NCBI GenBank assembly: GCA_964017185.1
Contig: OZ024871.1
Span: forward strand, 59,633,226-59,697,225
Length of the DNA: 64,000 nt
Reading direction: 5' to 3'
Origin: Rugalucina vietnamica
Lineage: Eukaryota > Mollusca > Bivalvia > Lucinida > Lucinidae
Part shown: positions 1 to 64,000 of the stretch, one piece after another
Layout: every line of letters starts with the position of its first letter
Numbering within the stretch: the stretch's first letter is position 1
Position numbers and translations under genes: made by a program
The notes under the pieces: generated by a model
Databases searched by the model: none
What the model saw: only the letters and a program-made list of their open reading frames with translations
What the model was told of the DNA's origin: nothing

Positions 1-53
1 TCTGACATTTTCTGACATTTATAAATTTATACACATCTGAAAAAGTTCAACCA

Positions 54-474
54 ATGGGAAGTATTGGACAAAACAACATTAATATACTAGTATACCGGGG
101 TTTTGGAAAGCCAGCTAAAGAAAGTTTGGTTAGCTGAGTTCCTGTTTTATGCCCCACTCAACAGCTAGTCATATGGAGACGTGAGCTATAGCAAAGCAGG
201 AAATTAGGGATAGCAGAGGATAAATTTTTATATTTTCAATTTTCATTTAATGTTTCATTATTTTTGTTTATTTTTTTAAGTTTTTTGGCACTTCTAGTCC
301 ATTCATATGAGAAGGTACACGTAGGCAAAGATCAGGAAAAGGCGCAATCAGAAAAAGATTCCCACTCCAAAAACCGAGGTGGGAAAAAACCAAACTAACA
401 ATCGGGTACTTATACCATGAAACATATCGTAAGCCGAATGAGCAGCTATTTTCCCAATAGGTGGCCACTCATTC
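54..474. other. AT-rich spacer of the unit
   Basis: No gene seen. It contains a perfect 12-bp palindrome TATACTAGTATA at 83-94, a T-rich stretch at 224-290 and several CATATG words. Short open frames on the minus strand overlap it but have no recognisable domain. Confidence 0.6.
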
Positions 475-712
475 ATATGAGGCCCATATAGTCCAAATGT
501 ACGGCCGTTATAGTCCAAAAGAAAGTCCCGTATAGCCCAGTTATGATAGCCAAAGCCCGTATAGTCCATCCATTGGACTATTTGGGACATATCGTACATT
601 GCCGCAATGCCCATATAGTCCACTACGGCCCCTATAGTCCATTGCCCGCAATCTACGATAATGCCCATATAGTCCACTAAGGCCCCTATAGTCCATTGCC
701 GCAATCTACGAG
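475..712. repeat. TATAGTCC minisatellite
   Basis: The word TATAGTCC, or close forms such as TATAGCCC, occurs about every 20-40 bases. The end of the block is a clear tandem pair of ~54 bp (607-660 and 661-712), differing mainly by one lost C. One inverted form, GGACTAT, at about 575 pairs with TAGTCCA to make a small hairpin. On the minus strand it reads as a repetitive 118-codon frame, which reflects the DNA repeat. The block recurs in every unit that covers this offset. Confidence 0.85.
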
Positions 713-974
713 AAATTGCGCAATATGGTCCATACTATCTCCCTTTGAATGATTTTACTGTTTCCAAAGGTACTAACCTTTATATTTTACTTACTTCTCT
801 TTAAAGCAGACACCAGTTAAGCATTGTCGTAAGTGCCGGCACATCTATACTGAAAAATCGAGGATGGCCAGCCGCTTTCGCAAGCGCAAACTTCCCTTCA
901 ATACAATGTTTTCGAAAATTCAGAATGACAAGCGAGATTGACGTCATAAGGGCTAAATGTTGGCAGTAGAATGA
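713..974 (+). repeat. 262-bp block, copy A
   Basis: This block lines up without gaps with 3647-3908; I counted 32 differences in 262 positions, about 88% identity. It starts AAATTGCGCA and ends GCAGTAGAATGA. It contains a full TGACGTCA octamer at 939-946, which copy B lacks. The differences are spread along the block and cluster around 873-892. I do not recognise the sequence. Confidence 0.9.
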
Positions 975-1425
975 AAGTGCGCATAATCAAACAAGGTGTG
1001 TTGCAAGCCCCAACGTAAACCGAGATGCACGTGATCTCCCAGCTGTACCTTAAAACCACTTGAACCGAAACTTTACGAAAATGAAACACAGATAACAAAT
1101 ATACGAAAGTACGATGAGAGAAAGGGGGTCACTACTTTGACCTTGACATTATGCCCACTTGAAGGTTCTATTTGTTAATATTGTTCAATGTTTGCTCAAT
1201 AGTTCCTCGTAGACTCCTAACATAATCATAAAAGGACGTAGACTGCAGAAAAATGACAACTCTAGCTTTGGGTTTTTTGTTTGTTTTTTCTCTCAGATAG
1301 AGCACAAAGAATAGGTTACTATGTAAAAATATATGAAAAAACATGCTTGATAAAGCTATCCAGGGTTTGAAATAATAATAATAAAAAAATAAATAAAGAT
1401 GACCACACTTCCAATTATCGAGATA
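975..1425. other. Spacer with splice-acceptor-like tract and AT-rich run
   Basis: No gene seen. The features are a CACGTG word at 1028-1033, a long T-rich tract ending in CTCTCAG at 1271-1296 that looks like a 3' splice site on the + strand, and an AATAAT/AATAAA-rich run at 1371-1399. Nothing shows that any of these is used. Confidence 0.5.
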
Positions 1426-1558
1426 AAGACGTTTTTACTACGTTTGATCAAAACTAGTATTATTTTGATTGGTGACTTGTCTCCCCTGATAAAAGAAGTT
1501 CGGTAATAGCAACCAAAAATAGCAACAATTTCCTACGCGAGGGTTAGCAAAGAGGCAA
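1426..1558 (+). repeat. Element E, partial copy E3
   Basis: The core at 1489-1558 matches 1779-1848 at a fixed shift of 290 bp, with 6 differences in 70 positions. The first bases (AAAGACGTTTTTACTAC) also resemble the start of E1, but the middle, including the 40-bp palindrome, is missing or replaced. Confidence 0.8.
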
Positions 1559-1667
1559 GATTTCTCTAATCCTAACCCTAACCCAACCAATATACAACAC
1601 ATACATTGCAGACACAAGGTCCTAGCCCTACCCGTTACCGAGATACAGTTCCTCAAAGTCTCATTCA

Positions 1668-1939
1668 TAAACGTTTTTACTACTTTACCCTTTAAACTGG
1701 TTGAACCCTTTCATATGCACATAAATTTATAGATGTCAGAAAATGTCAGAATGCTTCTGACAATTTTCTGACAGCGTAATAAAAGAAGTTCGGTAACATC
1801 TGCTAAAAATAGTAACAATTTCCTACGCGAGGGTTAGCAAAGAGGCAACATAACCCTAACCCTTACCTAACCCTAACCGAATTACATACAAATATCCTTC
1901 CGATTACCTCTACCCATCGGAAAATACCTATTCCCTAAC
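1668..1939 (+). repeat. Element E, copy E1
   Basis: A ~272-bp element starting TAAACGTTTTTACTAC and ending CCTATTCCCTAAC. It aligns with 4291-4563 at about 93% identity by eye. In order it contains a 40-bp near-palindrome, the shared core AAAAGAAGTTCGGTAAC, a TCCTACGCGAGGG word, a short CCCTAA stretch and a TCGGAAAATACC tail. It is followed directly by CCCTAA tracts, as E2 is. It has no coding capacity and does not match a family I know. Confidence 0.85.
1734..1773. repeat. 40-bp near-perfect palindrome
   Basis: The two ~19-base arms are built from TGTCAGAAAAT and GTCAGAA words and are complementary apart from one extra base in one arm; the centre is a few bases. As single-stranded DNA or RNA it would fold into a strong hairpin. 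The same palindrome occurs at 4354-4393 (with one change) and in reverse orientation at 4827-4866, and again in each unit. Confidence 0.9.
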
Positions 1940-1950
1940 CCAAACCAAAA

Positions 1951-2293
1951 CCCTAACCCTAACCCTAACCCTACATCAGATCATAACCAAGGTGGGCAAG
2001 TTGCCCATCTTCGCACACCAGCTTATACCCTAACCCTAACCCTAACCCTAACCCTACACCCTAACCCTAACCCTAACCCTAACCCTAACCCTCTTAAACC
2101 TAACCCTAACCCTAACCCTAACCCCAACCCCCTAACCCTAACCCTAACCCTAACCCCCTAACCCCCTAACCCTACCCCTAACCCCTAACCCTAACCCTAA
2201 CCCTAACCCTAACCCCAACCCTAACCCCAACCCCAACCCCAACCGTAACCCTGACCCTAACCCTGACCCTAACCCTGACCCTAACCCTCACCC
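1951..2293 (-). repeat. Telomere-like CCCTAA tracts with variant words
   Basis: A short pure tract (1951-1973) is followed by a small hairpin, TGGGCAAGTTGCCCA at 1993-2007, and a long tract (2028-2293). The long tract starts with exact CCCTAA and decays to the right: CCCCTAA and CCCCCTAA words, then CCCCAA words near 2216-2245, then alternating CCCTGA/CCCTAA pairs with a 12-bp period at 2250-2290. The G-rich telomere strand is the minus strand, which could form G-quadruplexes. Confidence 0.95.
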
Positions 2294-2614
2294 ATACTGA
2301 TATTAAAATATACTGTTTGACGCTAAAATTGACTTCCCTTTGACCCTCGGTGTTGACCCTCGGGGTTGGCATATTCGAATTCTTCATCGAAAATGACTTA
2401 CTACAGAACACAAAATTAACGCTCTAACTCTAACCCTCTTCCAGCTATGCGAAATTCTGAGTTTGCATGCTTACCATAGGGTTAGGGTTGGGGCTAGGAT
2501 CAACCTGTGTCAATGTTGTTCTTGCCCAATACTCAGACTACATGTAGGCATAAATACGTGTGTGATATGTCCATGCAGTTACCACGTATAGAGGTCGAAA
2601 GTTTATAACAGTCG
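2294..2614. other. Spacer between telomere-like tract and minisatellite
   Basis: No gene seen. It contains decayed hexamers (TTGACCCTCGG near 2340), a short TAGGGTTAGGGTTGGGG stretch at 2478-2494 and otherwise unique sequence. A 73-77 codon minus-strand frame starts here, but most of it is translated CCCTAA repeat (Val-Arg dipeptides). Confidence 0.55.
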
Positions 2615-3520
2615 CTATTTAACGGTTAACATTTTTTAATAAGCTGGGTAATGTAATGGGTTTTATTAAAAGGGGTTATGGTTAGTAAAGGGTTAACCTT
2701 TCTGACAAGCTTGGTTATCAAAGGCGTTATGCTGAGTAAATGGTCGAGGGTTAACCTTTTTCGCTAGTTGGGTTATCAAAGGGTTGATTGTGAGTAAAGG
2801 GTTAAGACTTCACCTTTTTGTCTAGCTGGGTTATCAAAAGGTTGATGCTGAGAAAAGTGTAAATGGTTAACCTATTTGACAAGCTGGGGTTATCAAAAGG
2901 GGTAAAGGTAGGTCAAGGGTTAATGCTTAACCTTTTTAGCTAGCTTGGTATTCTGATGGGGTTATGACGAGTTAAGGGTTAAGGGTGAGCCTTTTTGACT
3001 AGCTGGGTTATCTAAAGGTGTTATCAAATATCAAAAAAGGGTTATGGAAAACAAAGGGTTAACCTTTTTAACTAGCTTTGTATTTAACGGTTAGGGTGCG
3101 AAAAGGGTAGAGGGTTACCCTTTTTGACTAGTTTGGTTATCAAAAGGTGTTATCAAAAGCGGTTAAGGTTTAAGCTTTTTTCCTAGCTGGGCTATCAAAG
3201 GGATTATTGTGAGTAAAGGGTTAAGGGTTGAACTTCTTGACAAGCTGGATAATAGAAATGGTTTATGGTAAAGGGTTAAGTGTTAACCCTTTTGACTAGA
3301 TGGGTTATCAAAAGGGGTTATCAAAAGGGGTAATGGTGAAAGAAAAAAGGGGGTTAAAGGGTGAACCTTTTCGACTAGCATTGCTATCAAAAGCGATTAT
3401 GATGAGTAAATGGTTGAGGTTTAACCCTCTTATGGTATGGTAAGTAGAGGGTTAAGGGTTTATCTTTATGACTAGCTGGGTTATCAAAATGGGTTATCAA
3501 AAGGGGCTATGGTGAGTAAA
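2615..3520 (+). repeat. ~60-bp minisatellite, main block
   Basis: About 14-15 diverged tandem monomers of 55-72 bp. A typical monomer reads GGGTTAACCTTTTTGAC, then TAGCTGGGTTATCAAAAG, then GGGTTATGGTGAGTAAAG. GGGTTA words recur several times per monomer, and many monomers carry the palindrome GGTTAACC. The monomers in one unit differ strongly from each other, but the whole block is the same from unit to unit, so spread occurs at the level of the 4.8-kb unit. Confidence 0.9.
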
Positions 3521-3558
3521 GGGTTAAGGGTTAGGGTTAGGGTTAGGGTTAGGGTTAG
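3521..3558 (+). repeat. Telomere-like TTAGGG tract, opposite orientation
   Basis: About six GGGTTA/GGGTTAA words on the + strand, opposite to the CCCTAA tracts at 1951-2293 and 4245-4793. It joins smoothly to the last GGGTTAAG word of the minisatellite. Four or more G-triplets here could form a quadruplex on the + strand. Confidence 0.92.
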
Positions 3559-3646
3559 TGTAAAATGTTGAAATCGAAGTATATTTGAATGTATTTTGCT
3601 ATCGTCGTCGGTTTATAAATGGTCACTGGTGAGGGTCCCGTACCCG
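3559..3646. other. Short spacer before block B
   Basis: Unique AT-rich sequence in each unit. Nothing recognisable was seen. Confidence 0.5.
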
Positions 3647-3908
3647 AAATTGCGCAGTATGGTCCATATTATCTCCCTTTGAATGTTTTTACTGCTTCCA
3701 AAGGTACTAACCTTTATATTTTACTTACTTCTCTTGGAAGCAGGCACCAGTACAGCATTATCCTAGGTGTAGGCACATCTATATTGAAAAATCGTGGATG
3801 GCCACTTGCTGTCAACCGCGCAAACTACCCTCCAATACAATGCTTTCGAAAATTCTGAATGACAAGCGAGATTGACGACATAAGGGCTACATGTTGCCAG
3901 TAGAACGA
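3647..3908 (+). repeat. 262-bp block, copy B
   Basis: Ungapped partner of 713-974, about 88% identical. The TGACGTCA octamer of copy A is changed to TGACGACA here. The block splits the 60-bp minisatellite into two parts (2615-3520 and 3925-4110), so either it entered that repeat or the repeat grew on both sides of it. A duplicated ATGTTGCCAGTAGAA word follows at 3891 and 3910. Confidence 0.9.
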
Positions 3909-3924
3909 ACATGTTGCCAGTAGA

Positions 3925-4110
3925 ATAACCTTTTTGACTGGCTGGTTTTGTCAAGAGAGTTCATGTGAGTAAAGAACTAAGGGTAAATGAATTTCACCCG
4001 ATGGGTAATCAAAAGGGGTTATGGTGAGTAAAGGGTTAAGGGTTAACCCTTTTACAAGCTTGGATATCAAAAGGGGTTATGGAGAGTAAAGTGTTAAGGG
4101 TTAACCTTTG
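3925..4110 (+). repeat. ~60-bp minisatellite, second block
   Basis: Three more monomers of the same family as 2615-3520, including AACCTTTTTGACTGGCTGG at about 3928 and GGTGAGTAAAGGGTTAAG near 4023. The block ends at TTAACCTTTG. Confidence 0.88.
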
Positions 4111-4244
4111 TTCTTATATTTTTAGACAAACACATGTGATTTGACACGAGCCACGTGTTACATAGAACCAATCAGAAGCCGCACCATAACAGCTGAAGGC
4201 GGAGCTCCTCATCTCTCATCCCTCATTTCGTCATTTGTCCCCTA
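4111..4244 (+). promoter_or_regulatory. Promoter-like block upstream of CCCTAA tract
   Basis: This is a non-repetitive ~130-bp stretch with several transcription-factor-like words: CACATGTG near 4131, E-box CACGTG at 4152-4157, a perfect CCAAT-box core AACCAATCAG at 4166-4175 (fits the known NF-Y consensus) and CAGCTG at 4190-4195, followed by GGCGGAGC and a CT-rich stretch. It lies directly before a CCCTAA tract. It is kept in every unit, but so is all the rest of the unit, so conservation does not argue for function. Promoter activity is inference from motifs only. Confidence 0.35.
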
Positions 4245-4293
4245 CCCTAACCCTAACCCTAACCCCTAACCCTAACCCTAACCCTAACCCTAA
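4245..4293 (-). repeat. Telomere-like CCCTAA tract
   Basis: About eight CCCTAA words with one CCCCTAA. It lies between the promoter-like block and element copy E2, which begins with the last TAA. Confidence 0.93.
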
Positions 4294-4563
4294 ACGTTTT
4301 TTACTACTATACCCTTTAAACTGATGGAACCTTTTCAGATGTAAATAAAATGATAGATGTCAGAAAATGTCAGAATGCTTCTGACAGTTTTCTGACAGCG
4401 TAATAAAAGAAGTTCGGTAACATCTACTAAAAATAGTAACACTTTCCTACGCGAGGGTTAGCAAAGAGGCAACATAACCCTAACCCTTACCTAACCCTAA
4501 CCGAATTACCTACAAATATCCTTCCGAGTACTTGGACTCATCGGAAAATACCTATTCCCTAAC
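4291..4563 (+). repeat. Element E, copy E2
   Basis: About 93% identical to E1 (1668-1939) by eye. Most differences are in the first 80 bases and near 4527-4542. It includes the 40-bp near-palindrome at 4354-4393. With the reversed copy E4 at 4794-4902 it forms an inverted repeat around the CCCTAA tract. Confidence 0.85.
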
Positions 4564-4565
4564 TC

Positions 4566-4793
4566 TAAACCCTTACCCTAACCCTAACCCTTACAATAAC
4601 CCAACCCTAACCCTAACCCCTAACCCTAACCCTATCCCTAACCCCTAACCCTAACCCTAACCCTAACCCAAACCCTAACCCTAACCCTAACCCTAACCCC
4701 TAACCCTAACCCTAACCCTAACCCCTAACCCTAACCCTAACCCTAACCCTAACCCAAACCCTAACCCCTAACCCTAACCCTAACCCTAACCCT
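4566..4793 (-). repeat. Terminal telomere-like tract of the unit
   Basis: About 230 bp of CCCTAA with CCCCTAA, CCCTTA, CCCTAT and CCCAAA interruptions. The order of the interruptions works as a barcode: units 1-2 are alike, 3-4 are alike, 5 is shorter, 7-9 lack about 90 bp including the second CCCAAACCC, and 10-13 are 13 bp longer than 7-9. This tract accounts for most of the length difference between the left and right blocks. Confidence 0.93.
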
Positions 4794-4902
4794 ATTTTAG
4801 TAGATGTTACCGAACTTCTTTTATGCTGTCAGAAAATTGTCAGAAGCATTCTGACATTTTCTGACATTTATAAATTTATACACATCTGAAAAAGTTCAAC
4901 CA
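4794..4902 (-). repeat. Element E, inverted copy E4
   Basis: The reverse complement of this stretch matches the first half of element E: a GGTTGAAC-like start, the ATAAATTTATA word, the 40-bp palindrome (4827-4866) and the AAAAGAAGTTCGGTAACATC core. It lacks the GTAA of the GCGTAATAAAAG junction and the CGCGAGGG tail. It touches the CCCTAA tract on its left and unique spacer on its right. The window opens inside the equivalent copy (1-53). Confidence 0.85.
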
Positions 4903-7900
4903 ATGGGAAGTATTGGACAAAACAACATTAATATACTAGTATACCGGGGTTTTGGAAAGCCAGCTAAAGAAAGTTTGGTTAGCTGAGTTCCTGTTTTATG
5001 CCCCACTCAACAGCTAGTCATATGGAGACGTGAGCTATAGCAAAGCAGGAAATTAGGGATAGCAGAGGATAAATTTTTATATTTTCAATTTTCATTTAAT
5101 GTTTCATTATTTTTGTTTATTTTTTTAAGTTTTTTGGCACTTCTAGTCCATTCATATGAGAAGGTACACGTAGGCAAAGATCAGGAAAAGGCGCAATCAG
5201 AAAAAGATTCCCACTCCAAAAACCGAGGTGGGAAAAAACCAAACTAACAATCGGGTACTTATACCATGAAACATATCGTAAGCCGAATGAGCAGCTATTT
5301 TCCCAATAGGTGGCCACTCATTCATATGAGGCCCATATAGTCCAAATGTACGGCCGTTATAGTCCAAAAGAAAGTCCCGTATAGCCCAGTTATGATAGCC
5401 AAAGCCCGTATAGTCCATCCATTGGACTATTTGGGACATATCGTACATTGCCGCAATGCCCATATAGTCCACTACGGCCCCTATAGTCCATTGCCCGCAA
5501 TCTACGATAATGCCCATATAGTCCACTAAGGCCCCTATAGTCCATTGCCGCAATCTACGAGAAATTGCGCAATATGGTCCATACTATCTCCCTTTGAATG
5601 ATTTTACTGTTTCCAAAGGTACTAACCTTTATATTTTACTTACTTCTCTTTAAAGCAGACACCAGTTAAGCATTGTCGTAAGTGCCGGCACATCTATACT
5701 GAAAAATCGAGGATGGCCAGCCGCTTTCGCAAGCGCAAACTTCCCTTCAATACAATGTTTTCGAAAATTCAGAATGACAAGCGAGATTGACGTCATAAGG
5801 GCTAAATGTTGGCAGTAGAATGAAAGTGCGCATAATCAAACAAGGTGTGTTGCAAGCCCCAACGTAAACCGAGATGCACGTGATCTCCCAGCTGTACCTT
5901 AAAACCACTTGAACCGAAACTTTACGAAAATGAAACACAGATAACAAATATACGAAAGTACGATGAGAGAAAGGGGGTCACTACTTTGACCTTGACATTA
6001 TGCCCACTTGAAGGTTCTATTTGTTAATATTGTTCAATGTTTGCTCAATAGTTCCTCGTAGACTCCTAACATAATCATAAAAGGACGTAGACTGCAGAAA
6101 AATGACAACTCTAGCTTTGGGTTTTTTGTTTGTTTTTTCTCTCAGATAGAGCACAAAGAATAGGTTACTATGTAAAAATATATGAAAAAACATGCTTGAT
6201 AAAGCTATCCAGGGTTTGAAATAATAATAATAAAAAAATAAATAAAGATGACCACACTTCCAATTATCGAGATAAAGACGTTTTTACTACGTTTGATCAA
6301 AACTAGTATTATTTTGATTGGTGACTTGTCTCCCCTGATAAAAGAAGTTCGGTAATAGCAACCAAAAATAGCAACAATTTCCTACGCGAGGGTTAGCAAA
6401 GAGGCAAGATTTCTCTAATCCTAACCCTAACCCAACCAATATACAACACATACATTGCAGACACAAGGTCCTAGCCCTACCCGTTACCGAGATACAGTTC
6501 CTCAAAGTCTCATTCATAAACGTTTTTACTACTTTACCCTTTAAACTGGTTGAACCCTTTCATATGCACATAAATTTATAGATGTCAGAAAATGTCAGAA
6601 TGCTTCTGACAATTTTCTGACAGCGTAATAAAAGAAGTTCGGTAACATCTGCTAAAAATAGTAACAATTTCCTACGCGAGGGTTAGCAAAGAGGCAACAT
6701 AACCCTAACCCTTACCTAACCCTAACCGAATTACATACAAATATCCTTCCGATTACCTCTACCCATCGGAAAATACCTATTCCCTAACCCAAACCAAAAC
6801 CCTAACCCTAACCCTAACCCTACATCAGATCATAACCAAGGTGGGCAAGTTGCCCATCTTCGCACACCAGCTTATACCCTAACCCTAACCCTAACCCTAA
6901 CCCTACACCCTAACCCTAACCCTAACCCTAACCCTAACCCTCTTAAACCTAACCCTAACCCTAACCCTAACCCCAACCCCCTAACCCTAACCCTAACCCT
7001 AACCCCCTAACCCCCTAACCCTACCCCTAACCCCTAACCCTAACCCTAACCCTAACCCTAACCCCAACCCTAACCCCAACCCCAACCCCAACCGTAACCC
7101 TGACCCTAACCCTGACCCTAACCCTGACCCTAACCCTCACCCATACTGATATTAAAATATACTGTTTGACGCTAAAATTGACTTCCCTTTGACCCTCGGT
7201 GTTGACCCTCGGGGTTGGCATATTCGAATTCTTCATCGAAAATGACTTACTACAGAACACAAAATTAACGCTCTAACTCTAACCCTCTTCCAGCTATGCG
7301 AAATTCTGAGTTTGCATGCTTACCATAGGGTTAGGGTTGGGGCTAGGATCAACCTGTGTCAATGTTGTTCTTGCCCAATACTCAGACTACATGTAGGCAT
7401 AAATACGTGTGTGATATGTCCATGCAGTTACCACGTATAGAGGTCGAAAGTTTATAACAGTCGCTATTTAACGGTTAACATTTTTTAATAAGCTGGGTAA
7501 TGTAATGGGTTTTATTAAAAGGGGTTATGGTTAGTAAAGGGTTAACCTTTCTGACAAGCTTGGTTATCAAAGGCGTTATGCTGAGTAAATGGTCGAGGGT
7601 TAACCTTTTTCGCTAGTTGGGTTATCAAAGGGTTGATTGTGAGTAAAGGGTTAAGACTTCACCTTTTTGTCTAGCTGGGTTATCAAAAGGTTGATGCTGA
7701 GAAAAGTGTAAATGGTTAACCTATTTGACAAGCTGGGGTTATCAAAAGGGGTAAAGGTAGGTCAAGGGTTAATGCTTAACCTTTTTAGCTAGCTTGGTAT
7801 TCTGATGGGGTTATGACGAGTTAAGGGTTAAGGGTGAGCCTTTTTGACTAGCTGGGTTATCTAAAGGTGTTATCAAATATCAAAAAAGGGTTATGGAAAA

Positions 7901-9698
7901 CAAAGGGTTAACCTTTTTAACTAGCTTTGTATTTAACGGTTAGGGTGCGAAAAGGGTAGAGGGTTACCCTTTTTGACTAGTTTGGTTATCAAAAGGTGTT
8001 ATCAAAAGCGGTTAAGGTTTAAGCTTTTTTCCTAGCTGGGCTATCAAAGGGATTATTGTGAGTAAAGGGTTAAGGGTTGAACTTCTTGACAAGCTGGATA
8101 ATAGAAATGGTTTATGGTAAAGGGTTAAGTGTTAACCCTTTTGACTAGATGGGTTATCAAAAGGGGTTATCAAAAGGGGTAATGGTGAAAGAAAAAAGGG
8201 GGTTAAAGGGTGAACCTTTTCGACTAGCATTGCTATCAAAAGCGATTATGATGAGTAAATGGTTGAGGTTTAACCCTCTTATGGTATGGTAAGTAGAGGG
8301 TTAAGGGTTTATCTTTATGACTAGCTGGGTTATCAAAATGGGTTATCAAAAGGGGCTATGGTGAGTAAAGGGTTAAGGGTTAGGGTTAGGGTTAGGGTTA
8401 GGGTTAGTGTAAAATGTTGAAATCGAAGTATATTTGAATGTATTTTGCTATCGTCGTCGGTTTATAAATGGTCACTGGTGAGGGTCCCGTACCCGAAATT
8501 GCGCAGTATGGTCCATATTATCTCCCTTTGAATGTTTTTACTGCTTCCAAAGGTACTAACCTTTATATTTTACTTACTTCTCTTGGAAGCAGGCACCAGT
8601 ACAGCATTATCCTAGGTGTAGGCACATCTATATTGAAAAATCGTGGATGGCCACTTGCTGTCAACCGCGCAAACTACCCTCCAATACAATGCTTTCGAAA
8701 ATTCTGAATGACAAGCGAGATTGACGACATAAGGGCTACATGTTGCCAGTAGAACGAACATGTTGCCAGTAGAATAACCTTTTTGACTGGCTGGTTTTGT
8801 CAAGAGAGTTCATGTGAGTAAAGAACTAAGGGTAAATGAATTTCACCCGATGGGTAATCAAAAGGGGTTATGGTGAGTAAAGGGTTAAGGGTTAACCCTT
8901 TTACAAGCTTGGATATCAAAAGGGGTTATGGAGAGTAAAGTGTTAAGGGTTAACCTTTGTTCTTATATTTTTAGACAAACACATGTGATTTGACACGAGC
9001 CACGTGTTACATAGAACCAATCAGAAGCCGCACCATAACAGCTGAAGGCGGAGCTCCTCATCTCTCATCCCTCATTTCGTCATTTGTCCCCTACCCTAAC
9101 CCTAACCCTAACCCCTAACCCTAACCCTAACCCTAACCCTAAACGTTTTTTACTACTATACCCTTTAAACTGATGGAACCTTTTCAGATGTAAATAAAAT
9201 GATAGATGTCAGAAAATGTCAGAATGCTTCTGACAGTTTTCTGACAGCGTAATAAAAGAAGTTCGGTAACATCTACTAAAAATAGTAACACTTTCCTACG
9301 CGAGGGTTAGCAAAGAGGCAACATAACCCTAACCCTTACCTAACCCTAACCGAATTACCTACAAATATCCTTCCGAGTACTTGGACTCATCGGAAAATAC
9401 CTATTCCCTAACTCTAAACCCTTACCCTAACCCTAACCCTTACAATAACCCAACCCTAACCCTAACCCCTAACCCTAACCCTATCCCTAACCCCTAACCC
9501 TAACCCTAACCCTAACCCAAACCCTAACCCTAACCCTAACCCTAACCCCTAACCCTAACCCTAACCCTAACCCCTAACCCTAACCCTAACCCTAACCCTA
9601 ACCCAAACCCTAACCCCTAACCCTAACCCTAACCCTAACCCTATTTTAGTAGATGTTACCGAACTTCTTTTATGCTGTCAGAAAATTGTCAGAAGCAT
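4850..9698 (+). repeat. Satellite unit 2 (4849 bp)
   Basis: Same length as unit 1 and, wherever I compared them, the same sequence, including the fast-changing CCCTAA tracts. This implies a very recent duplication, or an assembly that copied one consensus unit. Confidence 0.95.
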
Positions 9699-12600
9699 TC
9701 TGACATTTTCTGACATTTATAAATTTATACACATCTGAAAAAGTTCAACCAATGGGAAGTATTGGACAAAACAACATTAATATACTAGTATACCGGGGTT
9801 TTGGAAAGCCAGCTAAAGAAAGTTTGGTTAGCTGAGTTCCTGTTTTATGCCCCACTCAACAGCTAGTCATATGGAGACGTGAGCTATAGCAAAGCAGGAA
9901 ATTAGGGATAGCAGAGGATAAATTTTTATATTTTCAATTTTCATTTAATGTTTCATTATTTTTGTTTATTTTTTTAAGTTTTTTGGCACTTCTAGTCCAT
10001 TCATATGAGAAGGTACACGTAGGCAAAGATCAGGAAAAGGCGCAATCAGAAAAAGATTCCCACTCCAAAAACCGAGGTGGGAAAAAACCAAACTAACAAT
10101 CGGGTACTTATACCATGAAACATATCGTAAGCCGAATGAGCAGCTATTTTCCCAATAGGTGGCCACTCATTCATATGAGGCCCATATAGTCCAAATGTAC
10201 GGCCGTTATAGTCCAAAAGAAAGTCCCGTATAGCCCAGTTATGATAGCCAAAGCCCGTATAGTCCATCCATTGGACTATTTGGGACATATCGTACATTGC
10301 CGCAATGCCCATATAGTCCACTACGGCCCCTATAGTCCATTGCCCGCAATCTACGATAATGCCCATATAGTCCACTAAGGCCCCTATAGTCCATTGCCGC
10401 AATCTACGAGAAATTGCGCAATATGGTCCATACTATCTCCCTTTGAATGATTTTACTGTTTCCAAAGGTACTAACCTTTATATTTTACTTACTTCTCTTT
10501 AAAGCAGACACCAGTTAAGCATTGTCGTAAGTGCCGGCACATCTATACTGAAAAATCGAGGATGGCCAGCCGCTTTCGCAAGCGCAAACTTCCCTTCAAT
10601 ACAATGTTTTCGAAAATTCAGAATGACAAGCGAGATTGACGTCATAAGGGCTAAATGTTGGCAGTAGAATGAAAGTGCGCATAATCAAACAAGGTGTGTT
10701 GCAAGCCCCAACGTAAACCGAGATGCACGTGATCTCCCAGCTGTACCTTAAAACCACTTGAACCGAAACTTTACGAAAATGAAACACAGATAACAAATAT
10801 ACGAAAGTACGATGAGAGAAAGGGGGTCACTACTTTGACCTTGACATTATGCCCACTTGAAGGTTCTATTTGTTAATATTGTTCAATGTTTGCTCAATAG
10901 TTCCTCGTAGACTCCTAACATAATCATAAAAGGACGTAGACTGCAGAAAAATGACAACTCTAGCTTTGGGTTTTTTGTTTGTTTTTTCTCTCAGATAGAG
11001 CACAAAGAATAGGTTACTATGTAAAAATATATGAAAAAACATGCTTGATAAAGCTATCCAGGGTTTGAAATAATAATAATAAAAAAATAAATAAAGATGA
11101 CCACACTTCCAATTATCGAGATAAAGACGTTTTTACTACGTTTGATCAAAACTAGTATTATTTTGATTGGTGACTTGTCTCCCCTGATAAAAGAAGTTCG
11201 GTAATAGCAACCAAAAATAGCAACAATTTCCTACGCGAGGGTTAGCAAAGAGGCAAGATTTCTCTAATCCTAACCCTAACCCAACCAATATACAACACAT
11301 ACATTGCAGACACAAGGTCCTAGCCCTACCCGTTACCGAGATACAGTTCCTCAAAGTCTCATTCATAAACGTTTTTACTACTTTACCCTTTAAACTGGTT
11401 GAACCCTTTCATATGCACATAAATTTATAGATGTCAGAAAATGTCAGAATGCTTCTGACAATTTTCTGACAGCGTAATAAAAGAAGTTCGGTAACATCTG
11501 CTAAAAATAGTAACAATTTCCTACGCGAGGGTTAGCAAAGAGGCAACATAACCCTAACCCTTACCTAACCCTAACCGAATTACATACAAATATCCTTCCG
11601 ATTACCTCTACCCATCGGAAAATACCTATTCCCTAACCCAAACCAAAACCCTAACCCTAACCCTAACCCTACATCAGATCATAACCAAGGTGGGCAAGTT
11701 GCCCATCTTCGCACACCAGCTTATACCCTAACCCTAACCCTAACCCTAACCCTACACCCTAACCCTAACCCTAACCCTAACCCTAACCCTCTTAAACCTA
11801 ACCCTAACCCTAACCCTAACCCCAACCCCCTAACCCTAACCCTAACCCTAACCCCCTAACCCCCTAACCCTACCCCTAACCCCTAACCCTAACCCTAACC
11901 CTAACCCTAACCCCAACCCTAACCCCAACCCCAACCCCAACCGTAACCCTGACCCTAACCCTGACCCTAACCCTGACCCTAACCCTCACCCATACTGATA
12001 TTAAAATATACTGTTTGACGCTAAAATTGACTTCCCTTTGACCCTCGGTGTTGACCCTCGGGGTTGGCATATTCGAATTCTTCATCGAAAATGACTTACT
12101 ACAGAACACAAAATTAACGCTCTAACTCTAACCCTCTTCCAGCTATGCGAAATTCTGAGTTTGCATGCTTACCATAGGGTTAGGGTTGGGGCTAGGATCA
12201 ACCTGTGTCAATGTTGTTCTTGCCCAATACTCAGACTACATGTAGGCATAAATACGTGTGTGATATGTCCATGCAGTTACCACGTATAGAGGTCGAAAGT
12301 TTATAACAGTCGCTATTTAACGGTTAACATTTTTTAATAAGCTGGGTAATGTAATGGGTTTTATTAAAAGGGGTTATGGTTAGTAAAGGGTTAACCTTTC
12401 TGACAAGCTTGGTTATCAAAGGCGTTATGCTGAGTAAATGGTCGAGGGTTAACCTTTTTCGCTAGTTGGGTTATCAAAGGGTTGATTGTGAGTAAAGGGT
12501 TAAGACTTCACCTTTTTGTCTAGCTGGGTTATCAAAAGGTTGATGCTGAGAAAAGTGTAAATGGTTAACCTATTTGACAAGCTGGGGTTATCAAAAGGGG

Positions 12601-14546
12601 TAAAGGTAGGTCAAGGGTTAATGCTTAACCTTTTTAGCTAGCTTGGTATTCTGATGGGGTTATGACGAGTTAAGGGTTAAGGGTGAGCCTTTTTGACTAG
12701 CTGGGTTATCTAAAGGTGTTATCAAATATCAAAAAAGGGTTATGGAAAACAAAGGGTTAACCTTTTTAACTAGCTTTGTATTTAACGGTTAGGGTGCGAA
12801 AAGGGTAGAGGGTTACCCTTTTTGACTAGTTTGGTTATCAAAAGGTGTTATCAAAAGCGGTTAAGGTTTAAGCTTTTTTCCTAGCTGGGCTATCAAAGGG
12901 ATTATTGTGAGTAAAGGGTTAAGGGTTGAACTTCTTGACAAGCTGGATAATAGAAATGGTTTATGGTAAAGGGTTAAGTGTTAACCCTTTTGACTAGATG
13001 GGTTATCAAAAGGGGTTATCAAAAGGGGTAATGGTGAAAGAAAAAAGGGGGTTAAAGGGTGAACCTTTTCGACTAGCATTGCTATCAAAAGCGATTATGA
13101 TGAGTAAATGGTTGAGGTTTAACCCTCTTATGGTATGGTAAGTAGAGGGTTAAGGGTTTATCTTTATGACTAGCTGGGTTATCAAAATGGGTTATCAAAA
13201 GGGGCTATGGTGAGTAAAGGGTTAAGGGTTAGGGTTAGGGTTAGGGTTAGGGTTAGTGTAAAATGTTGAAATCGAAGTATATTTGAATGTATTTTGCTAT
13301 CGTCGTCGGTTTATAAATGGTCACTGGTGAGGGTCCCGTACCCGAAATTGCGCAGTATGGTCCATATTATCTCCCTTTGAATGTTTTTACTGCTTCCAAA
13401 GGTACTAACCTTTATATTTTACTTACTTCTCTTGGAAGCAGGCACCAGTACAGCATTATCCTAGGTGTAGGCACATCTATATTGAAAAATCGTGGATGGC
13501 CACTTGCTGTCAACCGCGCAAACTACCCTCCAATACAATGCTTTCGAAAATTCTGAATGACAAGCGAGATTGACGACATAAGGGCTACATGTTGCCAGTA
13601 GAACGAACATGTTGCCAGTAGAATAACCTTTTTGACTGGCTGGTTTTGTCAAGAGAGTTCATGTGAGTAAAGAACTAAGGGTAAATGAATTTCACCCGAT
13701 GGGTAATCAAAAGGGGTTATGGTGAGTAAAGGGTTAAGGGTTAACCCTTTTACAAGCTTGGATATCAAAAGGGGTTATGGAGAGTAAAGTGTTAAGGGTT
13801 AACCTTTGTTCTTATATTTTTAGACAAACACATGTGATTTGACACGAGCCACGTGTTACATAGAACCAATCAGAAGCCGCACCATAACAGCTGAAGGCGG
13901 AGCTCCTCATCTCTCATCCCTCATTTCGTCATTTGTCCCCTACCCTAACCCTAACCCTAACCCCTAACCCTAACCCTAACCCTAACCCTAAACGTTTTTT
14001 ACTACTATACCCTTTAAACTGATGGAACCTTTTCAGATGTAAATAAAATGATAGATGTCAGAAAATGTCAGAATGCTTCTGACAGTTTTCTGACAGCGTA
14101 ATAAAAGAAGTTCGGTAACATCTACTAAAAATAGTAACACTTTCCTACGCGAGGGTTAGCAAAGAGGCAACATAACCCTAACCCTTACCTAACCCTAACC
14201 GAATTACCTACAAATATCCTTCCGAGTACTTGGACTCATCGGAAAATACCTATTCCCTAACTCTAAACCCTTACCCTAACCCTAACCCTTACAATAACCC
14301 AACCCTAACCCTAACCCTAACCCTATCCCTAACCCCTAACCCTAACCCTAACCCAAACCCTAACCCTAACCCTAACCCTAACCCTAACCCCTAACCCTAA
14401 CCCTAACCCTAACCCCTAACCCTAACCCTAACCCTAACCCTAACCCTAACCCAAACCCTAACCCCTAACCCTAACCCTAACCCTAACCCTATTTTAGTAG
14501 ATGTTACCGAACTTCTTTTATGCTGTCAGAAAATTGTCAGAAGCAT
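9699..14546 (+). repeat. Satellite unit 3 (4848 bp)
   Basis: Like units 1 and 2 up to the last CCCTAA tract. There the CCCCTAA interruptions are arranged differently near 14300-14420 and the unit is one base shorter. It keeps the CACCCATACTG variant of units 1 and 2, so it links those units to units 4 and 5. Confidence 0.95.
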
Positions 14547-17500
14547 TCTGACATTTTCTGACATTTATAAATTTATACACATCTGAAAAAGTTCAACCAA
14601 TGGGAAGTATTGGACAAAACAACATTAATATACTAGTATACCGGGGTTTTGGAAAGCCAGCTAAAGAAAGTTTGGTTAGCTGAGTTCCTGTTTTATGCCC
14701 CACTCAACAGCTAGTCATATGGAGACGTGAGCTATAGCAAAGCAGGAAATTAGGGATAGCAGAGGATAAATTTTTATATTTTCAATTTTCATTTAATGTT
14801 TCATTATTTTTGTTTATTTTTTTAAGTTTTTTGGCACTTCTAGTCCATTCATATGAGAAGGTACACGTAGGCAAAGATCAGGAAAAGGCGCAATCAGAAA
14901 AAGATTCCCACTCCAAAAACCGAGGTGGGAAAAAACCAAACTAACAATCGGGTACTTATACCATGAAACATATCGTAAGCCGAATGAGCAGCTATTTTCC
15001 CAATAGGTGGCCACTCATTCATATGAGGCCCATATAGTCCAAATGTACGGCCGTTATAGTCCAAAAGAAAGTCCCGTATAGCCCAGTTATGATAGCCAAA
15101 GCCCGTATAGTCCATCCATTGGACTATTTGGGACATATCGTACATTGCCGCAATGCCCATATAGTCCACTACGGCCCCTATAGTCCATTGCCCGCAATCT
15201 ACGATAATGCCCATATAGTCCACTAAGGCCCCTATAGTCCATTGCCGCAATCTACGAGAAATTGCGCAATATGGTCCATACTATCTCCCTTTGAATGATT
15301 TTACTGTTTCCAAAGGTACTAACCTTTATATTTTACTTACTTCTCTTTAAAGCAGACACCAGTTAAGCATTGTCGTAAGTGCCGGCACATCTATACTGAA
15401 AAATCGAGGATGGCCAGCCGCTTTCGCAAGCGCAAACTTCCCTTCAATACAATGTTTTCGAAAATTCAGAATGACAAGCGAGATTGACGTCATAAGGGCT
15501 AAATGTTGGCAGTAGAATGAAAGTGCGCATAATCAAACAAGGTGTGTTGCAAGCCCCAACGTAAACCGAGATGCACGTGATCTCCCAGCTGTACCTTAAA
15601 ACCACTTGAACCGAAACTTTACGAAAATGAAACACAGATAACAAATATACGAAAGTACGATGAGAGAAAGGGGGTCACTACTTTGACCTTGACATTATGC
15701 CCACTTGAAGGTTCTATTTGTTAATATTGTTCAATGTTTGCTCAATAGTTCCTCGTAGACTCCTAACATAATCATAAAAGGACGTAGACTGCAGAAAAAT
15801 GACAACTCTAGCTTTGGGTTTTTTGTTTGTTTTTTCTCTCAGATAGAGCACAAAGAATAGGTTACTATGTAAAAATATATGAAAAAACATGCTTGATAAA
15901 GCTATCCAGGGTTTGAAATAATAATAATAAAAAAATAAATAAAGATGACCACACTTCCAATTATCGAGATAAAGACGTTTTTACTACGTTTGATCAAAAC
16001 TAGTATTATTTTGATTGGTGACTTGTCTCCCCTGATAAAAGAAGTTCGGTAATAGCAACCAAAAATAGCAACAATTTCCTACGCGAGGGTTAGCAAAGAG
16101 GCAAGATTTCTCTAATCCTAACCCTAACCCAACCAATATACAACACATACATTGCAGACACAAGGTCCTAGCCCTACCCGTTACCGAGATACAGTTCCTC
16201 AAAGTCTCATTCATAAACGTTTTTACTACTTTACCCTTTAAACTGGTTGAACCCTTTCATATGCACATAAATTTATAGATGTCAGAAAATGTCAGAATGC
16301 TTCTGACAATTTTCTGACAGCGTAATAAAAGAAGTTCGGTAACATCTGCTAAAAATAGTAACAATTTCCTACGCGAGGGTTAGCAAAGAGGCAACATAAC
16401 CCTAACCCTTACCTAACCCTAACCGAATTACATACAAATATCCTTCCGATTACCTCTACCCATCGGAAAATACCTATTCCCTAACCCAAACCAAAACCCT
16501 AACCCTAACCCTAACCCTACATCAGATCATAACCAAGGTGGGCAAGTTGCCCATCTTCGCACACCAGCTTATACCCTAACCCTAACCCTAACCCTAACCC
16601 TACACCCTAACCCTAACCCTAACCCTAACCCTAACCCTCTTAAACCTAACCCTAACCCTAACCCTAACCCCAACCCCCTAACCCTAACCCTAACCCTAAC
16701 CCCCTAACCCCCTAACCCTACCCCTAACCCCTAACCCTAACCCTAACCCTAACCCTAACCCCAACCCTAACCCCAACCCCAACCCCAACCGTAACCCTGA
16801 CCCTAACCCTGACCCTAACCCTGACCCTAACCCTCACCCTTACTGATATTAAAATATACTGTTTGACGCTAAAATTGACTTCCCTTTGACCCTCGGTGTT
16901 GACCCTCGGGGTTGGCATATTCGAATTCTTCATCGAAAATGACTTACTACAGAACACAAAATTAACGCTCTAACTCTAACCCTCTTCCAGCTATGCGAAA
17001 TTCTGAGTTTGCATGCTTACCATAGGGTTAGGGTTGGGGCTAGGATCAACCTGTGTCAATGTTGTTCTTGCCCAATACTCAGACTACATGTAGGCATAAA
17101 TACGTGTGTGATATGTCCATGCAGTTACCACGTATAGAGGTCGAAAGTTTATAACAGTCGCTATTTAACGGTTAACATTTTTTAATAAGCTGGGTAATGT
17201 AATGGGTTTTATTAAAAGGGGTTATGGTTAGTAAAGGGTTAACCTTTCTGACAAGCTTGGTTATCAAAGGCGTTATGCTGAGTAAATGGTCGAGGGTTAA
17301 CCTTTTTCGCTAGTTGGGTTATCAAAGGGTTGATTGTGAGTAAAGGGTTAAGACTTCACCTTTTTGTCTAGCTGGGTTATCAAAAGGTTGATGCTGAGAA
17401 AAGTGTAAATGGTTAACCTATTTGACAAGCTGGGGTTATCAAAAGGGGTAAAGGTAGGTCAAGGGTTAATGCTTAACCTTTTTAGCTAGCTTGGTATTCT

Positions 17501-26993: not shown

Positions 26994-27000
26994 CCCTCAC

Positions 27001-29110: not shown

Positions 29111-29593
29111 GAGGAGATAAAATACATAAAAGTATATTGTCACATGATATGCAGTTTTTCTTAATTTGTGCTGTGTTCTGGCAAAACCTTTGCATATAGT
29201 AGGAAAAAATTAATACCAAAGATGTAAGTTTACTGATAAGAGTTTCTGTTTCTTAATTAAGCCCAGTGCCCAATAAAATAGATTAGCATCGGAAACATAA
29301 AATTAGTATATGCTTATGAACACACGCATACGATCAGTATGTTTTTTTTCTCAGTCTATATGTAAACGTTAATGGAGTGTAACAGCTCAGTGGTGTTTGT
29401 GGGAAGCCTTCCAAAATGATGACCAAGAGCACATAGTTTAGGCATTATTAACACTTATATGGAATGCATATGGTAGTTATATGATATGCGTGTGAACACC
29501 AACTGTCATACTCTCGTATATGTACAATTTTTGTAAATGTCTTCTATACATGTTCATTGATGTTGCGTAAAAGAACAAATGTCAAATAAAATT
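29111..29593 (+). other. LINE 3' untranslated region
   Basis: AT-rich non-coding tail after the stop codon, ending in AATAAA at 29585 and a short A run. No other gene is seen. The exact 3' boundary is inferred from the A run. Confidence 0.6.
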
Positions 29594-29602
29594 AAAAAAA
29601 AA

Positions 29603-29733
29603 TTATGAGCGCAAAATATTTGAAAAATGAATGTAATAGTAGCACCATTCCCTAACTTATTTCCATGCACGTATTGGAGCTAATGATGCAAAAACTTCAA
29701 AAGAAAACAACAGCAGAAAATCATGCTTGTTGC
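29603..29733. other. Unique AT-rich sequence
   Basis: Flank of the LINE 3' end. It is not satellite and has no recognisable gene or repeat. Confidence 0.5.
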
Positions 29734-29835
29734 TAGTGTTGGAAATCGGCTAGAATTTCATAATCGATTATCGGTTTTACTAAACCGATTGATTATCGAT
29801 GATTGATTATCGATTATATAATCGGCTTTTTCACT
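29734..29835 (+). mobile_element. Possible hAT-type DNA transposon terminus
   Basis: The stretch opens with TAGTGTTGGAAATCGG, which resembles the YAGTGTTG-like ends of many hAT elements. It continues with closely spaced, self-complementary words: TAATCGATTATCGG, CCGATTGATTATCGATG and GATTATCGATTATATAATCGG. The opposite end and an 8-bp target duplication were not found, so this may only be an ATCGATTAT-rich relic. Confidence 0.3.
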
Positions 29836-29940
29836 TTTCACATACCTTGGCTGTCACTTAGATTATTTGAACAGTGTGGACAGATAATTCACATGAGTAT
29901 CTATCAGAGTCAGAGTTGGCCTTTGCCCTGTCATATTTTT

Positions 29941-30021: not shown

Positions 30022-30030
30022 AACATTTAC

Positions 30031-60300: not shown

Positions 60301-62124
60301 TCTGATGGGGTTATGACGAGTTAAGGGTTAAGGGTGAGCCTTTTTGACTAGCTGGGTTATCTAAAGGTGTTATCAAATATCAAAAAAGGGTTATGGAAAA
60401 CAAAGGGTTAACCTTTTTAACTAGCTTTGTATTTAACGGTTAGGGTGCGAAAAGGGTAGAGGGTTACCCTTTTTGACTAGTTTGGTTATCAAAAGGTGTT
60501 ATCAAAAGCGGTTAAGGTTTAAGCTTTTTTCCTAGCTGGGCTATCAAAGGGATTATTGTGAGTAAAGGGTTAAGGGTTGAACTTCTTGACAAGCTGGATA
60601 ATAGAAATGGTTTATGGTAAAGGGTTAAGTGTTAACCCTTTTGACTAGATGGGTTATCAAAAGGGGTTATCAAAAGGGGTAATGGTGAAAGAAAAAAGGG
60701 GGTTAAAGGGTGAACCTTTTCGACTAGCATTGCTATCAAAAGCGATTATGATGAGTAAATGGTTGAGGTTTAACCCTCTTATGGTATGGTAAGTAGAGGG
60801 TTAAGGGTTTATCTTTATGACTAGCTGGGTTATCAAAATGGGTTATCAAAAGGGGCTATGGTGAGTAAAGGGTTAAGGGTTAGGGTTAGGGTTAGGGTTA
60901 GGGTTAGTGTAAAATGTTGAAATCGAAGTATATTTGAATGTATTTTGCTATCGTCGTCGGTTTATAAATGGTCACTGGTGAGGGTCCCGTACCCGAAATT
61001 GCGCAGTATGGTCCATATTATCTCCCTTTGAATGTTTTTACTGCTTCCAAAGGTACTAACCTTTATATTTTACTTACTTCTCTTGGAAGCAGGCACCAGT
61101 ACAGCATTATCCTAGGTGTAGGCACATCTATATTGAAAAATCGTGGATGGCCACTTGCTGTCAACCGCGCAAACTACCCTCCAATACAATGCTTTCGAAA
61201 ATTCTGAATGACAAGCGAGATTGACGACATAAGGGCTACATGTTGCCAGTAGAACGAACATGTTGCCAGTAGAATAACCTTTTTGACTGGCTGGTTTTGT
61301 CAAGAGAGTTCATGTGAGTAAAGAACTAAGGGTAAATGAATTTCACCCGATGGGTAATCAAAAGGGGTTATGGTGAGTAAAGGGTTAAGGGTTAACCCTT
61401 TTACAAGCTTGGATATCAAAAGGGGTTATGGAGAGTAAAGTGTTAAGGGTTAACCTTTGTTCTTATATTTTTAGACAAACACATGTGATTTGACACGAGC
61501 CACGTGTTACATAGAACCAATCAGAAGCCGCACCATAACAGCTGAAGGCGGAGCTCCTCATCTCTCATCCCTCATTTCGTCATTTGTCCCCTACCCTAAC
61601 CCTAACCCTAACCCCTAACCCTAACCCTAACCCTAACCCTAAACGTTTTTTACTACTATACCCTTTAAACTGATGGAACCTTTTCAGATGTAAATAAAAT
61701 GATAGATGTCAGAAAATGTCAGAATGCTTCTGACAGTTTTCTGACAGCGTAATAAAAGAAGTTCGGTAACATCTACTAAAAATAGTAACACTTTCCTACG
61801 CGAGGGTTAGCAAAGAGGCAACATAACCCTAACCCTTACCTAACCCTAACCGAATTACCTACAAATATCCTTCCGAGTACTTGGACTCATCGGAAAATAC
61901 CTATTCCCTAACTCTAAACCCTTACCCTAACCCTAACCCTTACAATAACCCAACCCTAACCCTAACCCCTAACCCCTAACCCTATCCCTAACCCCTAACC
62001 CTAACCCTAACCCTAACCCTAACCCAAACCCTAACCCTAACCCTAACCCTAACCCTAACCCTAACCCTATTTTAGTAGATGTTACCGAACTTCTTTTATG
62101 CTGTCAGAAAATTGTCAGAAGCAT
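57368..62124 (+). repeat. Satellite unit 13 (4757 bp)
   Basis: Shares the G at 57836 with unit 12 but has the usual six-T run and the usual CACCATAAC near 61531. The marker distance of 3253 bp is one base less than in unit 12, as the T run predicts. Confidence 0.95.
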
Positions 62125-64000
62125 TCTGACATTTTCTGACATTTATAAATTTATACACATCTGAAAAAGTTCAACCAATGGGAAGTATTGGACAAAACAA
62201 CATTAATATACTAGTATACCGGGGTTTTGGAAAGCCAGCTAAAGAAAGTTTGGTTAGCTGAGTTCCTGTTTTATGCCCCACTCAACAGCTAGTCATATGG
62301 AGACGTGAGCTATAGCAAAGCAAGAAATTAGGGATAGCAGAGGATAAATTTTTATATTTTCAATTTTCATTTAATGTTTCATTATTTTTGTTTATTTTTT
62401 TAAGTTTTTTGGCACTTCTAGTCCATTCATATGAGAAGGTACACGTAGGCAAAGATCAGGAAAAGGCGCAATCAGAAAAAGATTCCCACTCCAAAAACCG
62501 AGGTGGGAAAAAACCAAACTAACAATCGGGTACTTATACCATGAAACATATCGTAAGCCGAATGAGCAGCTATTTTCCCAATAGGTGGCCACTCATTCAT
62601 ATGAGGCCCATATAGTCCAAATGTACGGCCGTTATAGTCCAAAAGAAAGTCCCGTATAGCCCAGTTATGATAGCCAAAGCCCGTATAGTCCATCCATTGG
62701 ACTATTTGGGACATATCGTACATTGCCGCAATGCCCATATAGTCCACTACGGCCCCTATAGTCCATTGCCCGCAATCTACGATAATGCCCATATAGTCCA
62801 CTAAGGCCCCTATAGTCCATTGCCGCAATCTACGAGAAATTGCGCAATATGGTCCATACTATCTCCCTTTGAATGATTTTACTGTTTCCAAAGGTACTAA
62901 CCTTTATATTTTACTTACTTCTCTTTAAAGCAGACACCAGTTAAGCATTGTCGTAAGTGCCGGCACATCTATACTGAAAAATCGAGGATGGCCAGCCGCT
63001 TTCGCAAGCGCAAACTTCCCTTCAATACAATGTTTTCGAAAATTCAGAATGACAAGCGAGATTGACGTCATAAGGGCTAAATGTTGGCAGTAGAATGAAA
63101 GTGCGCATAATCAAACAAGGTGTGTTGCAAGCCCCAACGTAAACCGAGATGCACGTGATCTCCCAGCTGTACCTTAAAACCACTTGAACCGAAACTTTAC
63201 GAAAATGAAACACAGATAACAAATATACGAAAGTACGATGAGAGAAAGGGGGTCACTACTTTGACCTTGACATTATGCCCACTTGAAGGTTCTATTTGTT
63301 AATATTGTTCAATGTTTGCTCAATAGTTCCTCGTAGACTCCTAACATAATCATAAAAGGACGTAGACTGCAGAAAAATGACAACTCTAGCTTTGGGTTTT
63401 TTGTTTGTTTTTTCTCTCAGATAGAGCACAAAGAATAGGTTACTATGTAAAAATATATTAAAAAACTTGCTTGATAAAGCTATCCAGGGTTTGAAATAAT
63501 AATAATAAAAAAATAAATAAAGATGACCACACTTCCAATTATCGAGATAAAGACGTTTTTACTACGTTTGATCAAAACTAGTATTATTTTGATTGGTGAC
63601 TTGTCTCCCCTGATAAAAGAAGTTCGGTAATAGCAACCAAAAATAGCAACAATTTCCTACGCGAGGGTTAGCAAAGAGGCAAGATTTCTCTAATCCTAAC
63701 CCTAACCCAACCAATATACAACACATACATTGCAGACACAAGGTCCTAGCCCTACCCGTTACCGAGATACAGTTCCTCAAAGTCTCATTCATAAACGTTT
63801 TTACTACTTTACCCTTTAAACTGGTTGAACCCTTTCATATGCACATAAATTTATAGATGTCAGAAAATGTCAGAATGCTTCTGACAATTTTCTGACAGCG
63901 TAATAAAAGAAGTTCGGTAACATCTGCTAAAAATAGTAACAATTTCCTACGCGGGGGTTAGCAAAGAGGCAACATAACCCTAACCCTTACCTAACCCTAA
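62125..64000 (+). repeat. Satellite unit 14, cut by window end
   Basis: First 1876 bases of another right-block unit, with CAAAGCAAGAAAT, ATTAAAAAACTTG and ACGCGGGGGTT. It has the usual T at offset 469. The array continues beyond the window. Confidence 0.95.

Follow-up and report, generated by a model that had tools for sequence, protein, structure and literature searches.

The stretch of 64,000 nucleotides from Rugalucina vietnamica analysed here (the window; C3:59,633,226-59,697,225 in an assembly of 1.09 Gb and 47 contigs, C3 being 83,363,704 bp) lies within a long head-to-tail array of a unit of about 4.8 kb that contains several tracts of telomere-like CCCTAA repeats. The array is interstitial and is confined to a single locus. 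It is probably best explained as a macrosatellite assembled from modules that also occur at chromosome ends, in which a founder unit was brought into the interior of C3 and multiplied by exchange or repair guided by its telomere-like tracts. As read from the sequence, the array has one locus and one founder, neighbouring units are the most alike, unit lengths change mostly in hexamer steps, and its modules are shared with arrays at chromosome ends.

Extent and composition of the array

Contig X is the name used here for the contig with the left edge of the array, contig Y for the part of the window left of its N gap and contig Z for the part right of that gap. The genome was searched with a 40-base anchor, allowing up to 3 mismatches. 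All 86 matches were on C3, on the plus strand and exact, at 59,620,983-60,025,708. The array as a whole spans C3:59,615,692-60,026,665 (~410 kb), 23.3 Mb from the nearest scaffold end. Its left edge is sharp: the flank (29.7 kb on contig X, free of N) is followed by a 198-bp CCCTAA tract and then by a unit entered at an internal point. Exact telomere 12-mers cover 93% of this edge tract, against 54-85% in six internal tracts measured. On the right side, contig Z stops within a unit at a gap (C3:60,026,666).

Within the window the array occupies positions 1-26,993 (contig Y) and 31,009-64,000 (contig Z), both on the plus strand, with 13 anchor copies and 11 complete units. Contig Y begins with a partial unit, followed by units starting at 2299, 7148, 11997, 16845 and 21693 (4849, 4849, 4848, 4848 and 4827 bp) and a cut-off unit from 26520, and its array ends mid-unit at 26,993. 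Complete units in the contig Z part measure 4756, 4756, 4756, 4751, 4758 and 4758 bp. Four groups of units are identical letter for letter (U1 and U2; U3 and U4; U7, U8 and U9; U11 and U12), which places identical units side by side in 5 of the 9 adjacent complete pairs on the same contig, compared to 2.1 expected after shuffling within contigs (P=0.019). Pairwise, units in the window differ by 0-15 substitutions plus indels, and units of different classes by 3-15 substitutions plus length changes. The initial annotation, which had described the window as a single tandem repeat of very low divergence between neighbours apart from about 4 kb, was accurate on each of these points; the excepted part is 26,994-31,008 and consists of a truncated long interspersed nuclear element (LINE), a 147-bp tandem repeat and a 200-N gap. 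A macrosatellite is a tandem repeat with a monomer of more than 500 bp that may be composite, in the definition quoted from PMC12692304, and the composite unit of 4.75-4.85 kb with its 86 anchor copies is of this kind. Since distinct unit classes differ at single positions and 86 anchor copies are present in the assembly, the array is not one or two real copies multiplied by an assembly mistake, a possibility the initial annotation had raised.

Anatomy of the unit

Module coordinates refer to a representative unit of class B (11,997-16,844, plus strand, 4848 bp). This unit contains 75 CCCTAA and 7 TTAGGG hexamers, whereas shuffled versions (n=50) contain a mean of 2.3 for both together. Seven C-rich tracts, four main ones (59, 240, 44 and 273 bp) and three shorter, all read CCCTAA on the plus strand; a 44-bp TTAGGG tract (13,218-13,261, minus strand) and two shorter ones run in the opposite orientation, and a short tract of this kind is found in each complete unit. 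Exact telomere 12-mers account for 384-482 bp of each complete unit, and 642-736 bp is telomere-like when 2 mismatches per 12 are allowed, close to the 600 bp estimated earlier.

Near its start the unit carries a degenerate, AGGGTTA-rich 58-bp tandem repeat (12,386-13,019, plus strand, with further copies to ~13,805) that is present in each complete unit. It is followed, all on the plus strand unless stated, by the first copy of a 264-bp module termed D8 (13,344-13,607) and by tract 1 (13,937-13,995). Tract 2 (14,254-14,493, 240 bp), the site of the largest length changes between classes, is enclosed in a fold-back module with inverted arms of ~110 bp each, the left at 14,025-14,134 and the right at 14,489-14,594 (minus strand); a second copy of the left arm lies farther downstream (16,244-16,358). 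The second D8 copy (15,258-15,521) is 88% identical to the first, and D8 also occurs in the end arrays of C5 and C2 and in an array on C1. The unit closes with hairpin module A (GATCATAACCAAGGTGGGCAAGTTGCCCATCTTCG...TATACCC, 16,525-16,570), which directly precedes tract 4 (16,571-16,843, 273 bp).

The longest stop-to-stop frame in the unit is 128 aa, and with no long reading frame any role, if there is one at all, would be exerted through the DNA itself. A ribosomal or other RNA gene repeat was considered and rejected: no structural RNA gene was found in the unit by Rfam (E<=1 over 9,000-31,400, where the sole match scored below its curated score and fell outside the array), and no tRNA gene was found in the window.

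Founder unit and mode of growth

All units checked share a 158-bp insertion (14,858-15,015, strand not assigned) that resembles a short interspersed nuclear element and is flanked by 12-bp direct repeats (CATTCATATGAG) at 14,846-14,857 and 15,016-15,027. The left junction of the insertion was found at 13 places in the window and the right junction at the same number, exactly at 11 and with one substitution in two class-F units; both junctions are also present in contig X and in all seven further array stretches checked. The uninterrupted site occurs at three places, none of them within the array (C1:60,538,256, C1:60,566,923 and C3:17,630). A reading frame runs across the insertion, and 96 of the 120 protein matches listed for it (123 in all) align best only from the insertion or the direct repeat onward. 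By these signs the insertion is a dispersed element, and its presence in every unit checked indicates that one founder unit was multiplied.

Unit lengths were followed over contig Z, where 65 of 76 equal 4,757 bp plus or minus a whole multiple of 6. Neighbouring units have equal lengths in 34 of 75 cases, compared to 21.3 in shuffles (P=0.00035), an excess that peaks at lag 1. When classes are compared, the telomere-like tracts, which make up 15% of the unit, contain 5 of the 8 indel places (neighbouring gap columns grouped by hand; P=0.003). Clean hexamer-step spacing was also seen in arrays on C2 (7/7) and C14 (7/7). Taken together, hexamer-step lengths and equal lengths among neighbours form the pattern expected from local duplication of single units plus slippage of hexamers.

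Relatives elsewhere in the genome

Modules of the unit were found in repeats near the ends of C2, C5, C7, C10 and C14. The left end of C2 carries a CCCTAA telomere tract at 2,501-2,932, preceded by N where inspected, and at 70.0-104.7 kb an array of 8 units of 4.95 kb, of which 6.5 kb were read and found to contain hairpin A, D8 and CCCTAA tracts. C5 has at its left end an array of 3.2-kb units with at least 12 copies (4.9-49.5 kb), and the 3.4 kb read of it contain a module termed hairpin B, the inverted-arm module with its tracts (84-92%) and D8 (88-93%). The arm module is found at 84-95% (a range covering both scaffolds) on C7, where two hairpin-B copies lie 21-24 kb from the right end, and on C10, where one lies 31 kb from the right end. 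On C14 the arm pattern is repeated eight times at 3.2-kb spacing, the last copy 0.9 kb from the scaffold end. Searched exactly, the C5-type arm pattern occurs at 22 places: 12 at the left end of C5, 8 at the right end of C14, one ~81 kb from the right end of C13 and one in the interior of C17 (at 19.77 of 35.47 Mb).

Hairpin B has a layout like that of the array's own module, a hairpin with a telomere tract, in different letters, and carries a TATACCCTAACCC tail. With its tail (<=2 mismatches) it occurs at 26 places. Four are on C18, a scaffold of 81 kb; the 22 chromosomal copies are all 49.5 kb or less from a scaffold end (C3, C4, C5, C7, C8, C10 and C13), and at every one of these seven ends but C4 they are oriented like the native telomere. 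The four copies on C18 are spaced 17.3-17.4 kb apart, one that was read adjoins TTAGGG tracts, and a 17-kb tandem unit is possible there.

In the interior of C1, part of the unit is present in reverse at 60,530,376-60,533,169, matching unit positions 2,368-3,977 at 98.8% (1611 nt, including the insertion) and 3,973-4,843 at 93.6% (904 nt). About 290 bp of other sequence separates the two homologous parts, and both outer limits of homology fall in telomere-like tracts. The inverted-arm pattern appears again 28.66 kb from this copy. A second array on C1 (60,243,891-60,362,963) has at least 92 copies of hairpin A at intervals of ~1.3 kb; D8 at 85-87% and TTAGGG tracts were identified in 3 kb sampled from it. 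As a separate observation, two near-identical 3-kb stretches of C1 lie 28.67 kb apart and are probably part of a larger duplication on that scaffold.

Origin of the array

The mechanism that we favour starts from the telomere-like tracts, which would offer homology for exchange and for the repair of breaks. Joining of modules through such tracts could have produced the founder unit; unequal exchange or break-induced copying would then add or remove single units, with gain and loss of hexamers in the tracts by slippage. The founder may have been relocated into the interior of C3, or a former chromosome end may have been buried there, and the array may accordingly be described as a relocated or buried end that grows by local copying. 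We infer three steps of this scheme, namely guidance of exchange or break-induced copying by the tracts, spread inward from the ends, and the way by which C3 was reached. Three of the four edges examined are bounded by tracts, the exception being the contig Y edge at 26,993.

The initial annotation had suggested both a subtelomeric nature and exchange seeded by the telomere-like tracts, and each holds in part. Modules near the ends of C2, C5, C7, C10 and C14 bear out a kinship with subtelomeric repeats; the location, C3:59,615,692-60,026,665 of 83,363,704, does not. With the array 23.3 Mb from the end of C3 and its kin at chromosome ends as well as in the interior, the term subtelomeric suits the kin and not the array itself. 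Seeding by tracts is indirectly favoured by the homology limits on C1, by the left edge of the array and by the mostly hexamer-step lengths, and is disfavoured by the right edge on contig Y.

Several observations weigh against the explanation preferred here. The array is far from any chromosome end, its right edge on contig Y (26,993) lies outside any tract, and its right side reaches the flank only across a gap. Hairpin B, the strongest marker of chromosome ends, was not found in the C3 array (0 of 26 places genome-wide, <=2 mismatches). Hairpin A, in a variant two letters off the array's version, occurs at 1,155 places genome-wide (855+300, <=1 mismatch, the copies in the C3 array not counted), of which positions are known for the first 100 only, and the interior relatives on C1 and C17 show that the kin is not purely terminal. 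Hexamer steps do not account for the lengths of 11 of the 76 contig Z units, and spacings in the C5 and C1 arrays do not follow them cleanly either. A weak excess of equal lengths is also seen at two more of the 15 lags tested, 2 and 7 (P ~0.03 for either, no excess at P <0.1 at the remaining lags), so that a longer period is possible. Finally, exchange and break-induced copying are not separable on sequence.

It is possible, though the balance is somewhat against it, that the array is an outpost of break repair, in which a break in C3 was filled with a copy of a unit from a chromosome end, telomere-like DNA marked the junction, and expansion followed on the spot. The tract and the abrupt mid-unit entry at the left edge fit such an event, as does the partial unit on C1 bounded by tracts, and insertion of telomeric repeats at breaks is described for primates and rodents in PMC7215372.

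Burial of a chromosome end can be put in a specific form, in which everything on C3 to the right of 59.616 Mb derives from an independent chromosome, and a fusion to the left part buried the telomere and subtelomeric array of its left end. The possibility is raised by the left edge itself, a purer CCCTAA tract in left-telomere orientation: the 198-bp tract is outermost and, at 93% exact 12-mers, exceeds all six internal tracts measured, and a left end such as that of C2 natively reads CCCTAA on the plus strand. No gap interrupts the stretch from the flank through the tract into the first 2.8 kb of the array, and C1, the longest among twelve scaffolds compared, has interior arrays as well. A recent break repair could also give a purer tract, however, and C17, at 35 Mb, carries an interior copy too; in this form we consider the proposal rather unlikely.

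A broader and speculative proposal, to which we give little weight, is that the chromosome ends of this species carry recombining cassettes of hairpin and telomere tract, that the C1, C3 and C17 loci stem from fusions that buried former ends or from tract repair that moved cassettes inward, and that the C3 array is still growing in steps of units and hexamers. Together these would constitute a natural backup for rebuilding ends, similar to the TALT elements of nematodes, in an animal outside that group. If so, one genome would hold many related versions of a telomere-tract cassette, at ends and inside chromosomes. It would become testable how chromosome-end repeats pass between ends, whether interior telomere-like blocks are scars of fusion or of break repair, and whether templates for copying are maintained close to chromosome ends in animals whose telomeres are canonical TTAGGG; hexamer-step lengths would provide a readable record of tract slippage beside unit duplication.

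Alternatively, the interior loci of C1, C3 and C17 could mark centromere regions and represent pericentromeric, heterochromatic telomere repeats. They lie at ~59%, 72% and 56% of their scaffolds, respectively, and PMC6410037 describes extensive blocks of telomeric repeats close to vertebrate centromeres, but the bulk of each unit is non-telomeric and its modules are common to end arrays, which makes this improbable. A scaffolding error, with the array truly at a chromosome end and C3 wrongly joined, is very unlikely: the left flank is continuous with the array in one stretch, the array would be a right end in non-native orientation were only its left side real, and the shared motif occurs once beside the C4 locus (described below) as well. 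Rolling-circle spread, which the initial annotation had listed as an option, or amplification through an extrachromosomal circle would account for one founder and near-zero divergence but hardly for many classes in short runs with equal lengths clustered among close neighbours and direct neighbours most similar, and is likewise very improbable.

Comparison with known repeats

The nearest parallel appears to be TALT1 of wild Caenorhabditis elegans, a tandem of telomeric repeat and unique block in which one unit was gained by local duplication and further change took place in the repeat (PMC9066243; PMC4595603). As in the TALT1 described in PMC4595603, a unique block and short telomeric repeats stand in tandem here; unlike it (1.46 kb, 5-6 copies, near a chromosome end), the C3 unit is 4.8 kb long with four main tracts, and the array is interstitial with at least 86 anchor copies. 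A unique block flanked by same-orientation telomere-like repeats, an arrangement characteristic of TALT-like elements, is present in the unit, together with the short opposite tract; copying to chromosome ends on loss of telomerase is a further trait of such elements.

The protein-coding frame of yeast Y' elements is a helicase. These elements are ~5 kb long and sometimes tandem, and the telomeric tracts of 20 to ~500 bp that often lie between them are proposed to promote their amplification (PMC13177704). Arrays of Y' with interstitial telomeric sequences resemble the C3 array in unit size; they are subtelomeric and have open reading frames and a replication origin (same source), whereas the longest frame of the C3 unit is 128 aa, and identification of the unit as a Y' element was rejected for lack of a protein-coding frame, no profile search having been made with that frame.

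With single-locus macrosatellites such as human D4Z4 the array shares kilobase-sized units and a high copy number within one long array; the C3 unit differs from D4Z4, as outlined in PMC13138017, in having no long reading frame and in the telomere-like tracts inside it. Long monomers are likewise a feature of oyster satellite DNAs, with monomers up to 8,637 bp, many of them related to mobile elements; the portions of PMC11136912 and PMC8268682 on these satellites describe neither telomere-like tracts within monomers nor sharing with chromosome-end arrays, both of which are found for the C3 unit. Among the matches listed in the literature, the repeat libraries Repbase and Dfam lying outside the comparison, no published report of the C3 unit was found.

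Other features

In the protein collection the unit tag is listed for 9 contigs and the LINE for one of 427,733 bp, at odds with a single C3 locus and with the contig sizes seen here; these entries could come from a different assembly, from the second homologue or from a related species. A second sequence tag of the unit returned three diverged relatives on further contigs. At the start of C3, positions 1-3608 are a 180-bp tandem repeat (20 copies), and no CCCTAA or TTAGGG sequence was found in the readable part of the first 10 kb (7,501-10,000 is N).

The right edge of the array on contig Y is made by the LINE, which is 5'-truncated and spans 26,994-29,605 on the plus strand (3' limit approximate), with a reverse-transcriptase frame running stop to stop at 27,020-29,110. 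The 200-N scaffold gap at 30,809-31,008 separates contigs Y and Z, so that the window consists of two contigs, a point absent from the initial annotation, as are the opposite TTAGGG tract and the 58-bp repeat of each complete unit. A weak Rfam match to mir-4782 at 30,579-30,671 (27.8 bits against a curated 100) lies in a palindromic GGGGGG/CCCCCC stretch and is probably due to chance. The sequence after the LINE (29,594-30,808) is colinear at 96-98.6% with C4:24,896,110-24,897,471, a locus without the LINE. The 147-bp tandem repeat outside the array (30,026-30,498, plus strand) is present at many other loci, with dozens of matches on 13 scaffolds, mostly at 93-95% in the part of the candidates that was scored.

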